DNA from: Singulisphaera sp. GP187
GTDB taxonomy: Bacteria > Planctomycetota > Phycisphaerae > Phycisphaerales > SM1A02
Assembly: GCA_945888705.1 (NCBI GenBank)
Contig: CAMDAQ010000003.1
Location: forward strand, 1-48,858
Length of the DNA: 48,858 bases
Direction of reading: 5' to 3'
Both the position numbers and the translations under genes were made by a program. The notes under the pieces were generated by a model that saw only the letters and a program-made list of their open reading frames with translations, ran no database searches and was not told the origin of the DNA. The first letter of the stretch is position 1; the number at the start of each line of letters is the position of its first letter. Shown here one piece after another: positions 39,472 to 45,310 of this stretch.

Positions 39472-39539
39472 GCCCGATCGATCCGGTAGATCATCCGATC
39501 GCTCGGCACGCCGCCGACGGGCACCTGCTCGCGGCGATC
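39472..39539. repeat. 68-bp direct repeat, copy 1
   Basis: Identical to 40832-40899: GCCCGATCGATCCGGTAGATCATCCGATCGCTCGGCACGCCGCCGACGGGCACCTGCTCGCGGCGATC. Confidence 0.97.
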
Positions 39540-39557
39540 GAGCTGCGGATCCGCAGG

Positions 39558-40751
39558 TCACGATGTGCGTGACCGCTGCAGCGCGCCCGAGAGCGCGTGG
39601 AGCTGCGACACCGGGAGCGCCTCGATGCCGGGTCGAAGCTTGAAGCGAAGATCGCCCCGGTGAACGACCCAAAGCTTGTCCAAGCGCAAATCCTGCAGGG
39701 CGATCTCCATCGAGCGCGTGACGACCGGCGCATCGGTGCACTTGACTTCGATGCCAACTCGGCGGTCACCCCTGACCAGCATCAGGTCCAGTTCGGCACC
39801 CTGCGGGGTCGCCCAATGATGGGCTTCACCGGCACGTGCTCCGGCGATGTGGATGGCCTGCTCGACGACGAATCCCTCGAAGGATGCACCGATCTGTGGT
39901 CGCTCCCGGAGTTCGGCAGCACTGGAGATGCCCAGCAGGGCATGCAGCAATCCCGAGTCACGGATGTACACCTTTGGTGCCTTGACCTGGCGCTTGGCGA
40001 TGGACGCATGCCACGGACGGAGCAGCCGGATCGCGAAGAACCCTTCGAGCGTCTCCAGCCATCGACGCACCGTGGCCTCCGATGAGCCGAAGGCGCGAGC
40101 GAATTCCGATGCATTCCAGCGCTGTCCATGCCAGTGTGCCAGCATCTGCCAGAACCGTCGGAGCTCTGCTGGAGGCATCCGCAGGCCAGCGTCGAGCACG
40201 TCCCGCTCAAGATAGGTCTGCACGAACGACCGCCGCCATTCCATGCTGGCCGCCTCCGATCGTGCCGTGAAGGACCTTGGGAAGCCGCCGCGAAGCCAAA
40301 GGTTCTGCCATCGATCGGCCCCCACCTCATCGAGTCCGAAGCCACCGAGTTCGTGATACGCGATCCGCCCTGCCAGGCTTTCGCTTCCCCACGCTGCAAC
40401 GTCGGGCGAGGCGCTCCCCAGCAGCAGGAACCTGGCAGGCAGCGGCCGGCGATCCAGCAAGGGCCTGAGCGGTCGGAACAAGGCCGGCAGGCGCTGCACT
40501 TCGTCGATCACGACGAGGCCCCGAAGAGGCGCGAGGACCGGCTCCGGATCCTGCAGCAGCCGAAGGTCACGGTCCGTCTCGAGATCGAAGATCCGTGACG
40601 GCTTGCCCTGTGACGCAGCCACCGCCTGGGCCAGCGTGGTCTTGCCCACCTGCCGCGCGCCGAGGATGGCCACGGCCTGGAAGTTCCTCAGCAGCCGGAG
40701 GATGGCGGAACGGTGCGCAGGACGGTCGAGCATGGTGTCGAAGGCTACCAT
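39558..40751 (-). CDS. AAA-type ATPase with DUF4143
   Basis: AVAILGARQVGKTTLAQAVAA (Walker A), LVVIDEVQRLPALFRPLRPLLD, C-terminal IEVKCTDAPVVTRSMEIALQDLRLDKLWVVHRGD. Confidence 0.88.
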   Translation of the reverse strand: MVAFDTMLDRPAHRSAILRLLRNFQAVAILGARQVGKTTLAQAVAASQGKPSRIFDLETDRDLRLLQDPEPVLAPLRGLVVIDEVQRLPALFRPLRPLLDRRPLPARFLLLGSASPDVAAWGSESLAGRIAYHELGGFGLDEVGADRWQNLWLRGGFPRSFTARSEAASMEWRRSFVQTYLERDVLDAGLRMPPAELRRFWQMLAHWHGQRWNASEFARAFGSSEATVRRWLETLEGFFAIRLLRPWHASIAKRQVKAPKVYIRDSGLLHALLGISSAAELRERPQIGASFEGFVVEQAIHIAGARAGEAHHWATPQGAELDLMLVRGDRRVGIEVKCTDAPVVTRSMEIALQDLRLDKLWVVHRGDLRFKLRPGIEALPVSQLHALSGALQRSRTS

Positions 40752-40824: not shown

Positions 40825-41340
40825 CTACCCCGCCCGATCGATCCGGTAGATCATCCGATCGCTCGGCACGCCGCCGACGGGCACCTGCTCGCGGCGATCC
40901 AGCCGCGCGCCGATGCGCTCGAGCGCCCGCTGCGAACGCAGGTTGCCCGGGCTGACATGGAACCACGCGGTCGTGACATGCTCGAACGCGTGGCCGAGCA
41001 TGAGCGCCTTGACCTCGGCATTGGTGCGCCCGCCCCAGTGCGCGCGCTCGAGGAACGTGTAGCCGATCACGACCGACGATCCAGCCTGGTCCCAGTCGTA
41101 GTAACGGCTGGAACCGATGATCCGGCCTCCATCGCGCTCGGCGATGACCAGCCCACCGCCACACTCGAGCGCGCCCTTGAAGAACCGCTCGAAGACCGCG
41201 CGCTCGTGGCGATTGCGCTCCGAGTGCTGCTCCCAGATGAGCGGGTCGCTGGCCGCGGCGTGCAGCCCATCGAGGTCAGCCGCAACGATCGGACGCAGGC
41301 TGACGACGGGTCCGCGGAGGGTGGGTTGCCACGGATTCAT
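40825..41340 (-). CDS. GNAT-family N-acetyltransferase
   Basis: LRGPVVSLRPIVAADLDGLHAAASDPLIWEQ, VSPGNLRSQRALERIGARLD. Confidence 0.88.
   Translation of the reverse strand: MNPWQPTLRGPVVSLRPIVAADLDGLHAAASDPLIWEQHSERNRHERAVFERFFKGALECGGGLVIAERDGGRIIGSSRYYDWDQAGSSVVIGYTFLERAHWGGRTNAEVKALMLGHAFEHVTTAWFHVSPGNLRSQRALERIGARLDRREQVPVGGVPSDRMIYRIDRAG
40832..40899. repeat. 68-bp direct repeat, copy 2 (native GNAT 3' end)
   Basis: Identical to 39472-39539; encodes the GNAT C-terminus REQVPVGGVPSDRMIYRIDRA. Confidence 0.97.
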
Positions 41341-41349
41341 GGGCGATGC

Positions 41350-42978
41350 TCAGCCCGCGATCGCGGCATGGATCGCGCAATACGAGTCGAAGTCCGAGAG
41401 GAAGAGTTGGACGAGTTCCGGGTCGAAGTGCAGTCCAGACATCCGCTCGAACTCATCCCGGACATCAGCCGGGCTCCACGCTTCCTTGTAGGCACGCCGG
41501 GACATCAGGGCATCGAAGACATCGGCGATCGCCACCAGCCGTCCAGCAAGGGGAATGCCCTCGCCCCGGGGCTCTGGCACCCGCGAGCCATCCTCGCCCA
41601 GCTCTTCCAGCACCGCAGCGATCTCGGCGCGCGTGGGGTAACCCGTGCCGTCCCACCGTGCGTGGTGGTAGAGCGTCACGTCCCTGATGGCAGCATCCAG
41701 CGCGGTGCGCTGCCCCTTGAGCGCACTCTTGGCACCGATGACCGTATGCGACTGCATCACCGTGCGCTCCTCGGGGGTCAACGCACCGGGCTTCTTGAGG
41801 ATGACGTCGGAGATGCCCACCTTCCCCACGTCATGCAGCATCGCAGCTGGCCTGAGTGCGTCGAGCTCCTTCAGGATCCGTTCCTCGCTCCAGCCCCGCT
41901 GGCTTGCCCACGCGACGAACAGCCGGGTCGCCACCTGCGACACCCGGCGAATGTGCGCGCCCGTCTCCTTCGGGTCGTGGAGCTCGGCGATGCCCATGAT
42001 GCGCAGCACGAGCGTACGCGTGAGGTTCGACCGCTCGAGCGCCAGCGATGCCAGGCTCGCGAAGTTCATGGCCAGCGCCTGGTCCTGGCCGGAGAACTCC
42101 ATGGGCCGGAGCGTCTCTGGATCTCGGGGGTTGATCAGCTGCAGCACGCCAAGCAGCTCATTGTGGTTGCTGTTGAGCGCCACGGAGACCACCGCACGGG
42201 TGTGGAATCCCATCATGCGGTCCACGGATGGATTGAAGCAGAACGTGGCATCCTCGGGGATGTTGTAGGCATCCGCCACGGCGACGAGGCCATCGAGCGC
42301 AGCTGCGCCCGCCATGCTGGTCCGGTCCAGCGGCAGGCGGACTGGATCACCGGCTCGGACCAGCAGGCGCTCCCGGGACGATGCATCCGCATTCAGTGCA
42401 TGCCGGAAGACCAGCTCCCCCTCCTCAGCCAGCAGGATGCTGCCGGCTTCGCAATGGAAGGCCTGACCCGCCTCCTGCAGGAGCATCACCAGCAGTGTGT
42501 CGACATCCTGCACCGTGCTCAGGGCGAGCGAGAGCCGGTTGAGCGCCGTCGTCTTGTCATGGAGCAGTCGGTAGTTTTCCTCGACAAGCTCTTGATGCGA
42601 CTTGGTCTCAAGCACTGAACGCAGACGGTCCATGATCCCGTGCGGGACCCAGGAGGTTCCTGCATCGAACTGCCGCACCACGCGCCAGTGCATCTCGTCA
42701 TGGCGATCAGCACCCAGCCGGGCGGGCGGCTGGTGCTCCGTCACCATGATGCACTGCAGCGCCCTTGCTTCGCCGATGCGGCCAATCGAGACCTCGACGC
42801 GGACGGTGTCCGAACCCACGAGCGCCCTGGCGACCTCGCTGAAGGCGCTGGCCGCCTGCGACGCACACTGCCGATCGCCGGTCAGCAGCAGCATGCACTC
42901 GTGGATCTTGGCGCGTGCACCATCGACATCGGCTGCCCGACGGAGGTTGAAGTCGGCGAGGTGCATCATGGCTCCCAC
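41350..42978 (-). CDS. GAF plus HD-GYP-type phosphohydrolase
   Basis: GAF-like region (LLQEAGQAFHCEAGSILLAEEGELVF...GVLQLINP), AAMLHDVGKVGISDVILKKPGALTPEERTVMQSHTVIGA, HHARWDGTGYPT, IADVFDALMSRRAYK. Confidence 0.9.
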   Translation of the reverse strand: MGAMMHLADFNLRRAADVDGARAKIHECMLLLTGDRQCASQAASAFSEVARALVGSDTVRVEVSIGRIGEARALQCIMVTEHQPPARLGADRHDEMHWRVVRQFDAGTSWVPHGIMDRLRSVLETKSHQELVEENYRLLHDKTTALNRLSLALSTVQDVDTLLVMLLQEAGQAFHCEAGSILLAEEGELVFRHALNADASSRERLLVRAGDPVRLPLDRTSMAGAAALDGLVAVADAYNIPEDATFCFNPSVDRMMGFHTRAVVSVALNSNHNELLGVLQLINPRDPETLRPMEFSGQDQALAMNFASLASLALERSNLTRTLVLRIMGIAELHDPKETGAHIRRVSQVATRLFVAWASQRGWSEERILKELDALRPAAMLHDVGKVGISDVILKKPGALTPEERTVMQSHTVIGAKSALKGQRTALDAAIRDVTLYHHARWDGTGYPTRAEIAAVLEELGEDGSRVPEPRGEGIPLAGRLVAIADVFDALMSRRAYKEAWSPADVRDEFERMSGLHFDPELVQLFLSDFDSYCAIHAAIAG

Positions 42979-44030
42979 CTCAGCACGATGCAGCCGGCAT
43001 CGTCATGGCTGCGGCCGCGGCTGGCCACGATGTCATCGGCAAGCTCCTGGGCCGGCCGGAACGCATCGCGCACGGTGAGCGCGCCGGGAAGCCCCGAGAC
43101 TCCATCCGTCCACATCACGATCAAGTCACCGCGAGCGAGGGTCGTGGATTGCTCGAAGGGGGTCGGCAGCCGCTCTCCAAGCACACCATCCTTCGAGATG
43201 GGCCGCCATGGCGCCCCAGCGACCCGAGCGGCACCGGTGTTGCCCACCCCGATGTAGCGCGCCGTCCGGTCCGTGGCGCTCACGAAGAGCAGCCCCACCG
43301 CCGCGCCCCGCGAACCCTCGAGGCTCTCGTGGCATGCCTGGAGCAACTTCGGAAGCTCGCTGGCCTCGGCACGATCGAGCCGTGACCGGACCTGCTCGGC
43401 CGCGGCCTTGGCGAAGGAACCGTGACCGCTCGCATCGATCATCGCGAGCAGCACACCATCGTCGAGGCCGATGGCCAAGGCGAGATCACCACCATCATGC
43501 TGGCCGGGCGCCGGCCGCGCGCGCAGCCCGATGTCCCAGAGTGGCGTGGACCGCTCCAGCCCGCGGCTCGCTGCACCGCTTCGGGGCATGGAGCGCATCG
43601 ACGACTCGATCCGGCCGCCCGAGATCCGCTTGCGCGCATGCACGCGGGTGCCGGCGCCGGGTACCGATTCGATGGAGAAGCGGTCCGACATGCGACGCAC
43701 GCCGGGAAGCCCGAGCCCGAGGCTCGTCCCGGTCGTGAAGTGATCCTTGAGGGCCCGTTCGGTGTCGACGATCCCCGGGCCATGGTCCTCGGCCCAGACG
43801 TCGACGTCGACGCCATCGGCTTGGTCGGTCCGCGTCACACGAATCATGCCCCTGCCCGCATACTTCACGATGTTGGTGGCCAGCTCGGAGACGATCGTGA
43901 CGATCATCGCCCGCTGCACCTCGTCGGCCTCGGACAGCACGCCCGAAGCACGAAGTCGCTGGATGCCGACCGTGAGGTCGGCGTGGTCCCGGACGGGGAA
44001 CGACACCGCCGTGGCCGGCAGTTCACGCAC
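42966..44030 (-). CDS. Fused RsbT-like HATPase switch kinase plus RsbX-like PP2C phosphatase
   Basis: ELATNIVKYAGRGMIRV, EDHGPGI, FTTGTSLGLGLPGVRRMSDRFSIESVPGAGTRV; then PP2C GGDLALAIGLDDGVLLAMIDASGHGSFAKAAAEQV, LIVMWTDGV, HDDAGCIVL; GTG start. Confidence 0.88.
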   Translation of the reverse strand: MRELPATAVSFPVRDHADLTVGIQRLRASGVLSEADEVQRAMIVTIVSELATNIVKYAGRGMIRVTRTDQADGVDVDVWAEDHGPGIVDTERALKDHFTTGTSLGLGLPGVRRMSDRFSIESVPGAGTRVHARKRISGGRIESSMRSMPRSGAASRGLERSTPLWDIGLRARPAPGQHDGGDLALAIGLDDGVLLAMIDASGHGSFAKAAAEQVRSRLDRAEASELPKLLQACHESLEGSRGAAVGLLFVSATDRTARYIGVGNTGAARVAGAPWRPISKDGVLGERLPTPFEQSTTLARGDLIVMWTDGVSGLPGALTVRDAFRPAQELADDIVASRGRSHDDAGCIVLRWEP

Positions 44031-44406
44031 CGGTCGCCTCCGGCGTGGAGTCGATCGACTGCAGAGCTTCCTCAAGGCCGAGCATCGCCTGCAGGCCGCT
44101 GGTGTCCGCATCGCAATCCATCAGGTGCATGATGATGCCGGGCTGCAGCCCGACCAGCATCGTCCGTGCACCGAGCAGGCCCGCCATGCGCAGCACCTGT
44201 CGCAGGCCCCGGAACTCGGTCGCATCCATGAACGGGACACCCGACGCATCGACGATGAGCGTGGTGGCACCGCCGTGCTGGACCCCATCGAGCGCCACCT
44301 TGGTCAGCTGCTCCATGGCGGCCCCGCCCAGGTCACGACCGAGGGTCACGACCAGCGCGGGACCGACCCTGGTGCCGGTGACAAGGCTCGCTGCCGCGTC
44401 GGACAT
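44023..44406 (-). CDS. RsbS-like STAS-domain protein
   Basis: TTLIVDASGVPFMDATEFRGLRQVLRMAGLLGARTMLVGLQPGIIMHL, STAS domain in RsbR-RsbS-RsbT order. Confidence 0.85.
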   Translation of the reverse strand: MSDAAASLVTGTRVGPALVVTLGRDLGGAAMEQLTKVALDGVQHGGATTLIVDASGVPFMDATEFRGLRQVLRMAGLLGARTMLVGLQPGIIMHLMDCDADTSGLQAMLGLEEALQSIDSTPEATGA

Positions 44407-44416
44407 GCAGCGAGCC

Positions 44417-45310
44417 TCAGCCGTGCGGTGCCGGGCGGCGGTCGCCGCCGATGGTCTTCAGCGCGAGTTCGAACGAATCGCGCAGGGTTGCGGTGGTGCG
44501 GACCTCGCCGATGTTGACACCCAGCTCAACCAGGGTCCGCGCGATCGCCGGCGACAGGCCGGAGAGGATCGTCTCGCAGCCCATGAGCTGCGTGGCCTTG
44601 GTGATCTTGAGAAGCTGGTTGGCGACCGCGGTGTCCATCGCGCTCACGCCGCTGATGTCGAGGACCAGCGCCTTGGCACGCGTCTCCGCGATCTTCCCCA
44701 GCGTCTTGCTCATCACGTCCTGCGTACGGTGCGAGTCGAGGATGCCCAGCAGCGGCAGCAGCAGGATCCCCTCCCAGATCGGGGTCACCGGGGTCGACAT
44801 CTCCAGAAGCGCCTTCGAGCTGGCGGAGATCTTCTCGCGGTTGATGCGGGCGATCTCCTCGATGACGATGTACGAATCGAGGAACATGAGCTTCGAGATC
44901 GACTTGATGGTCTCCTCGGGCTCGCCGACCTTGCTGCCGAGTCCCCGGATGCGGTCCGCCATCAGGTTGTTCGAGACCGACATGCCCGCGAAGTAGATCT
45001 CGTTGGGCAGGTCGATGTGCGCGTGCACGGCACCGACATGGCGACGGGCATCGATCCACGACTCGTCGATCTCGGCCTGGAGGAAGGTCACCCAGTTGGC
45101 GTGCTGAAGCTTCTTGACCCGCTCCAGGCGTGTGGGGTTCGACGCGAAGAACACCTGGTATTCGCGGTGCTTGGACATCCAGTCGTAGAAGTCAGCGATG
45201 AAGTCGTCGAGCTGCGGCACGAGCATGGGGGCTGCCGCACGGATGCGCCGGAGATCCGCGTCGCGCAGGTCGAACTTCTCGAGGGTTTCCTTGATGGAGC
45301 TGGAAGCCAT
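44417..45310 (-). CDS. RsbR-like stressosome sensor: N-terminal protoglobin plus C-terminal STAS
   Basis: Globin F-helix-type DARRHVGAVHAHIDLPNEIYFAGM; STAS LLPLLGILDSHRTQDVM...LVLDISGVSAMDTAVANQLL...GCETILSGLSPAIARTLVELGVN. Confidence 0.9.
   Translation of the reverse strand: MASSSIKETLEKFDLRDADLRRIRAAAPMLVPQLDDFIADFYDWMSKHREYQVFFASNPTRLERVKKLQHANWVTFLQAEIDESWIDARRHVGAVHAHIDLPNEIYFAGMSVSNNLMADRIRGLGSKVGEPEETIKSISKLMFLDSYIVIEEIARINREKISASSKALLEMSTPVTPIWEGILLLPLLGILDSHRTQDVMSKTLGKIAETRAKALVLDISGVSAMDTAVANQLLKITKATQLMGCETILSGLSPAIARTLVELGVNIGEVRTTATLRDSFELALKTIGGDRRPAPHG

Follow-up and report, generated by a model that had tools for sequence, protein, structure and literature searches.

A predicted globin-type stressosome in a planctomycete, with RsbT and RsbX on one chain and a candidate input domain on its HD-GYP output

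How might a stressosome pass on its signal if its kinase and its reset phosphatase share one polypeptide and its RsbS-like protein lacks the usual phosphorylation site? The question is raised by four genes in a 48,858-nt stretch of DNA (hereafter the window) from a Planctomycetota metagenome-assembled genome (2.36 Mb, 93% complete). They lie on the minus strand, from position 45310 down to 41350, and encode a protoglobin-STAS protein (RsbR-like), a STAS protein (RsbS-like), a HATPase-PP2C protein in one frame, and a GAF-HD-GYP protein. We consider it fairly probable that they constitute a globin-type stressosome with oxygen-dependent turnover of cyclic di-GMP (c-di-GMP) as its outcome, in which the third protein would act as both RsbT and RsbX and a degenerate kinase-like domain would bring in the fourth. 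A first-pass annotation of the window had described four packed same-strand genes with these domains, and a Pfam search agreed, with the domains of all four proteins exceeding the cut-offs. The short gap that it noted between the first two genes measures 10 nt (44407-44416), and the ATGA overlap that it placed at the last junction was found at 42966-42969.

The most distinctive component is the product of the third gene (rsbTX, 42966-44006), a protein of 346 amino acids composed of an RsbT-like GHKL kinase domain (~43620-44006), a variable linker (~43542-43619) and an RsbX-like PP2C domain (~42969-43541). Pfam matches to HATPase_c (7.6e-11) and SpoIIE/PP2C (9.4e-9) fall in a single frame. The earlier proposal that kinase and phosphatase are joined on one polypeptide, with no frameshift between the domains, is borne out by five other genomes in which the fused frame is intact, two from the genus of the window (G498/L014 and G500/L015) and three from a sister genus (G486, G487 and G488). 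An assembly or frameshift origin can be rejected because the fusion is conserved in both genera. Compared with its genus relatives, the fused frame of the window has a ratio of nonsynonymous to synonymous substitution rates (dN/dS) of 0.14-0.16. On these comparisons the fusion is real, older than the genus and under purifying selection. The overlap with rsbS that had been claimed for the start of this gene did not survive, because it was taken from the longest open reading frame. Although that frame (ATG at 44111) does reach into rsbS, its first 35 codons show no conservation and a dN/dS of about 1 between relatives, which rules the upstream start out. Relatives carry ATG at the exact codon that is GTG 44006 in the window and the protein is conserved from there on, so that a 16-nt gap follows the rsbS stop codon.

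To place the two halves, trees were built from 49 kinase domains and 28 phosphatase domains. The kinase half groups with stand-alone RsbT proteins, mostly those of globin-RsbR operons (support 95), and the phosphatase half with stand-alone RsbX, while other HATPase-PP2C fusions of stressosome operons are placed apart from both. In keeping with these positions, the kinase half has the GHKL N box and G1/G2 boxes (SELATN, DHGPG, GTSLGLGLPG) and the other half is a short SpoIIE/PP2C domain with the metal-binding Asp (GGD, DASGHG, WTDG, SHDDA); both sets of motifs are largely kept in the family. AlphaFold returns two domains connected by a low-confidence linker, with an overall predicted local distance difference test score (pLDDT) of 68. 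Foldseek matches the kinase half to SpoIIAB, and the top matches of the PP2C half include other SpoIIE phosphatases and the Moorella stressosome phosphatase 3zt9, which ranks second by fold and first by sequence. Phylogeny and motifs thus indicate that the protein is a true RsbT joined to a true RsbX of the globin-stressosome lineage. As in globin-type stressosome (RSTX) modules, the two functions are encoded together downstream of rsbS, though here as one polypeptide.

The putative sensor is encoded by the first gene (44417-45310), in which the globin and STAS matches posited by the first-pass annotation are present: Protoglobin at 6.6e-24 (44855-45301) and a C-terminal STAS domain at 1.5e-15 (44513-44788). 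Its nearest solved relative is Vibrio vulnificus RsbR (7o0i_B), which aligns over nearly the whole length with an E-value of 1.2e-83. His96 (codon 45023-45025) is aligned with the proximal heme-ligand histidine of the globin-coupled sensors HemAT, AfGcHK and V. vulnificus RsbR, and together with Tyr42 (in the motif FYDW) and the STAS residues Thr173 and Thr227 it is invariant in all 11 globin-RsbR proteins compared. The protein therefore has the proximal histidine and both threonine sites expected of a globin-STAS RsbR in an RSTX module, and it is predicted to bind heme and O2.

The second gene (44023-44406) encodes a single STAS domain (Pfam 8.7e-8) for which RsbS structures are the top PDB matches. 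In the alignment column of Bacillus subtilis RsbS Ser59, however, it carries alanine (Ala62, codon 44221-44223), and the phosphorylatable Ser or Thr of the Bacillus type is likewise missing from both genus relatives with an available rsbS, giving Ala in all three. Five operons of the sister genus have Ser or Thr at this position, as do all of the non-globin stressosomes compared. Other globin stressosomes are variable, with Ala in G598, Arg in G741 and in Vibrio THAF64, Ile in Flammeovirga, and Ser/Thr in G090. According to Jia et al. (PMC4976288), V. brasiliensis has not conserved the RsbS sites of B. subtilis; in the latter, an S59A substitution in RsbS cancels activating mutations in RsbR (PMC9237128). 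Because alanine replaces the phosphoacceptor serine, the textbook RsbS switch is not applicable as stated, and in the genus of the window it cannot operate at this position. For the same reason, phosphorylation of the RsbR threonines would be the likelier main switch.

The fourth gene (41350-42969) encodes the presumed output protein, in which Pfam recognizes a GAF domain (7.5e-11; ~42037-42507) and an HD-GYP region (HD_5 1e-18, HD 3.7e-14; ~41365-42012). The latter matches PmGH with an E-value of 2.6e-37, and E335, H339, H379, D380, H408, H435, H436 and D483 align with the full set of PmGH metal ligands. Hydrolysis of c-di-GMP is thus likely, though not assured. The genome encodes two GGDEF proteins and six HD-GYP proteins.

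The output protein gave no Pfam match to RsbU_N, and its first ~122 residues (~42604-42969) are matched by no Pfam family. An RsbT-like fold was found there instead. The AlphaFold model of this domain has a pLDDT of 88, and the best Foldseek matches in the PDB by probability are RsbW, SpoIIAB and UsfX (probability 0.97-0.99, E 0.015-0.06). Profile comparison by hhalign relates it to RsbT at 94% (E 1e-7). The SE of the N box remains, but both the Asn and the DxGxG box have been lost. On sequence and model, these residues appear to be a pseudo-GHKL domain, that is, an RsbT/RsbW fold without the residues of the ATP site. The domain had not been seen by the first-pass annotation and is the best candidate for the link between the stressosome and its output.

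In the window the domain is followed by a helical linker (~42523-42603). In G090, G741 and G598 the gene directly after rsbX likewise opens with this domain and then a helical KSRxELxEE linker, and the outputs behind them are PP2C in the first two and a histidine kinase-REC protein in the third. A profile made from these three domains alone found RsbT proteins at E-values of 2e-10 to 1e-7, compared with a best value of about 0.03 among 20,000 shuffled decoys. A Flammeovirga SpoIIE protein also shares the domain (E 3e-8, or 3.5e-6 without the linker). A D1-like protein of Vibrio was considered but not counted as a clear example, since it matched with the linker (E 1.1e-5) and not with the globular part alone, and is only suggestive. 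Other stressosome operons (L105, L052 and L021) have an intact GHKL domain at the corresponding position. The gene series of G090, from the same order, consists of globin-RsbR, RsbS, RsbT, RsbX, a pseudo-GHKL-PP2C protein and an EAL phosphodiesterase, and thus differs from the window in having another c-di-GMP-degrading output in the same place. Heinz et al. reported that most proteins downstream in globin stressosomes lack RsbU_N (PMC9237108). Since the first effector gene in other globin stressosomes begins with it, the pseudo-GHKL domain may be an input module of their effectors. Extended to globin stressosomes generally, the idea is that the first effector after rsbX combines a pseudo-GHKL domain, a KSRxELxEE linker and an interchangeable output (PP2C, histidine kinase or HD-GYP), with the domain replacing RsbU_N and coupling the effector to the STAS core or RsbT; the lineage of the window would add a self-resetting RsbT-RsbX fusion and an RsbS without the usual phosphosite. 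We offer this generalization tentatively, at slightly less than even chances. No report of such a pseudo-kinase input domain was found in the open-access literature.

Taken together, the module could work as follows. RsbR would bind heme through His96, sense a gas, most likely O2, and form the STAS core with the RsbS-like protein. The RsbT half would dock on this core and, in the ligand-free state at low O2, phosphorylate Thr173 and Thr227 of RsbR; in the O2-sensing stressosome of Vibrio, kinase activity is higher with Fe(II) RsbR (PMC4976288). The RsbX half, tethered on the same chain, would take the phosphates off, and each module would therefore carry its own reset. The output protein would join through its RsbT-fold domain, binding either the STAS core or, in exchange with the kinase, the RsbT half, and a signal passing through the helical linker and GAF domain would alter hydrolysis of c-di-GMP by the HD-GYP domain, with oxygen-dependent turnover as the net effect. 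The first-pass annotation had already suggested a heme/O2-sensing stressosome controlling cyclic-dinucleotide turnover with kinase and reset on one chain. The globin-RsbR with its heme-ligand histidine, the RsbS-like scaffold, the genuine RsbT and RsbX halves, the HD-GYP metal ligands and the GGDEF proteins of the genome all speak for that suggestion, though not for the textbook RsbS switch in its stated form. Several points weigh against this scheme. Heme binding, phosphotransfer and c-di-GMP hydrolysis are steps that we infer, and the tie between the HD-GYP protein and the kinase draws on conserved gene order and a shared fold. For the pseudo-GHKL domain, Foldseek gives weak E-values (best 0.015) despite high probability and consistency. 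In the fusion, the linker shows little conservation and the model is only moderate. The HD-GYP motif reads HHARWDGTGYP rather than HHExxDGxGYP (the other five HD-GYP proteins of the genome have HHE in three cases and HHQ in two), and the relative G482 has Gln for one metal-ligand His, so that hydrolysis could be altered or lost.

A canonical stressosome would account for the same genes by having RsbT, merely fused to RsbX, released upon RsbS phosphorylation to bind and activate the HD-GYP protein, as RsbT does with RsbU in Bacillus. Gene order and the presence of all components fit this scheme, as do the Ser or Thr kept at the RsbS site in the five sister-genus operons and the reported control of a diguanylate cyclase by Moorella RsbT (cited in PMC4976288 and PMC12143880). 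We nevertheless judge it rather unlikely, given that the residue is Ala in all three rsbS available from the genus and one of Ala, Arg and Ile in four globin stressosomes from elsewhere, that the output protein has no Pfam match to RsbU_N, and that a covalent link to RsbX constrains the release of RsbT. It is also conceivable, at distinctly lower odds, that the HD-GYP protein is only co-transcribed, sharing a promoter and a condition with the stressosome and making no contact with it. In its favour, the evidence for an interaction is indirect, and the GAF domain might respond to a ligand of its own. The ATGA coupling, the adjacency of the fusion and the HD-GYP gene in both genera, and the degenerate kinase homologue at the start of the output protein, present likewise at the start of the first effectors in globin operons from other families, argue for contact instead.

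Two further explanations appear very improbable. The third protein might be an ordinary ATP-binding SpoIIE family phosphatase, with the true RsbT lost or encoded elsewhere, and HATPase-PP2C fusions are indeed common beside rsbRST (L021, L083, L052, L058, L059, L087 and L105). Its two halves, however, join the RsbT and RsbX that stand alone in globin operons and lie apart from such fusions, which adjoin a separate RsbT in every case examined; because of its tree placement, and because no separate RsbT is present in the operon, this identity was rejected. Decay of the operon, suggested by the altered RsbS site, the altered HHE motif, patchy presence and broken copies, deserves about as little weight. 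A deletion in G155 has fused the STAS domain to the HD-GYP end, the PP2C half of G482 contains a frame break, and the fucosidase and GNAT genes that otherwise flank the operon adjoin directly in G496 and G497, with no operon between them. On the other hand, dN/dS is 0.05-0.23 for the four genes among genus members, and catalytic motifs and frames are intact in five other genomes.

The fusion, whole or as a recognizable part, occurs in 10 of 181 genomes of the family, some copies being partial at contig ends, and was not found outside the family in order-wide (301 genomes) or phylum-wide (393 genomes) samples. A look-alike in G976, from the same order, proved to be of the common HATPase-PP2C type with its own RsbT. 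Comparison of the window with L015 revealed a mosaic: identity is 98-100% across rsbR and over most of the HD-GYP gene but drops to 76% between 44395 (rsbS codon 4) and 43095 (late rsbTX), a block in which L015 resembles L014/L016 instead (93-99%). The rsbS-rsbTX block thus seems to behave as an exchangeable cassette, with chimeric assembly of the genome as the alternative. Their exchange as one block suggests that rsbS and rsbTX are co-adapted partners.

Other rearrangements were seen at and around the operon. A second short mosaic patch (41254-41437) covers the end of the HD-GYP gene and the start of the GNAT gene, with 77% identity to L015 and near-identical DNA on either side. An AAA_14/DUF4143 ATPase gene (39558-40751) lies between the two units of a 76-bp direct repeat (39472-39547 and 40832-40907, 97% identical) that copies the 3' end of the GNAT gene. 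It looks as though the ATPase gene had been inserted with a duplication, and L014/L015 have one additional gene in this region. The remnant in G155 (L017, 7403-8899) results from an in-frame deletion joining the RsbR STAS domain to the C-terminal HD-GYP part, and two GGDEF-EAL genes lie near it. A second RsbR, of the PAS-PAS-STAS type and with its own RsbT, is encoded in two genomes of the sister genus, G487 (L082, 5847-7202) and G482 (L042); in the latter the contig has the STAS part only. In G333 (L019, 4136-6833), RsbT and RsbX directly follow a PAS-PAS-STAS RsbR, with no RsbS gene seen between.

How much of this is new? Globin-RsbR RSTX modules with c-di-GMP outputs have already been surveyed, with HDc and GAF among the downstream domains (PMC9237108), and the novelty is therefore narrower than the first-pass annotation implied. 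Its fused layout remains novel in that neither an RsbT-RsbX fusion nor a stressosome with HD-GYP in this arrangement was described in the open-access literature, subscription papers lying outside the search. New here are the fusion, the pseudo-GHKL input domain, the missing RsbS phosphosite in the genus and the exchangeable rsbS-rsbTX block. For the onward signalling of globin stressosomes, four planctomycete families and, as judged by sequence, Flammeovirga offer a concrete and testable candidate in the pseudo-GHKL domain. With the fusion, nature has set up an experiment on whether the kinase has to detach from the core and on the effect of a fixed 1:1 ratio of kinase to reset, while the natural alanine in RsbS asks if RsbR phosphorylation alone can run the switch.

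Among known systems, Mycobacterium tuberculosis Rv1364c (3ke6), an RsbU-RsbW protein matched in the structure searches, likewise has a partner-switching phosphatase and a GHKL kinase on one chain, but in reverse order and with RsbU/RsbW-type anti-sigma logic rather than that of an RsbT-RsbX stressosome pair. The ATP-binding SpoIIE phosphatases beside rsbRST in Phaeobacter (L087), G976 (L105) and G807 (L083) share the HATPase-then-PP2C order, single frame and stressosome operon, but a separate RsbT was always present in the cases examined and both halves are phylogenetically distinct. A Moorella thermoacetica stressosome with the diguanylate cyclase MtG was reportedly described by Quin in 2012. 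As discussed in later reports, this system (MtR/MtS/MtT/MtX and MtG) is similarly coupled to c-di-GMP but differs in that MtG makes the nucleotide and uses an RsbU_N input, and in that kinase and phosphatase are separate (PMC4976288, PMC12143880). The globin-coupled HD-GYP sensor of Vibrio fluvialis (PMC10882959) has the same input and output in one protein, whereas the globin of the window would act through a stressosome. Also close is the globin stressosome of V. vulnificus and V. brasiliensis, which has a globin-STAS RsbR, an RsbS lacking the phosphosite of B. subtilis, RsbT, RsbX and downstream c-di-GMP-type proteins (PMC9237108, PMC4976288); in the Vibrio relative L118, a REC-HD-GYP gene lies two genes after rsbX. 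In Vibrio, however, RsbT and RsbX are two proteins, a hybrid histidine kinase comes first among the effectors and the HD-GYP protein is a response regulator, while in the window the HD-GYP protein adjoins directly and carries the pseudo-GHKL domain itself.

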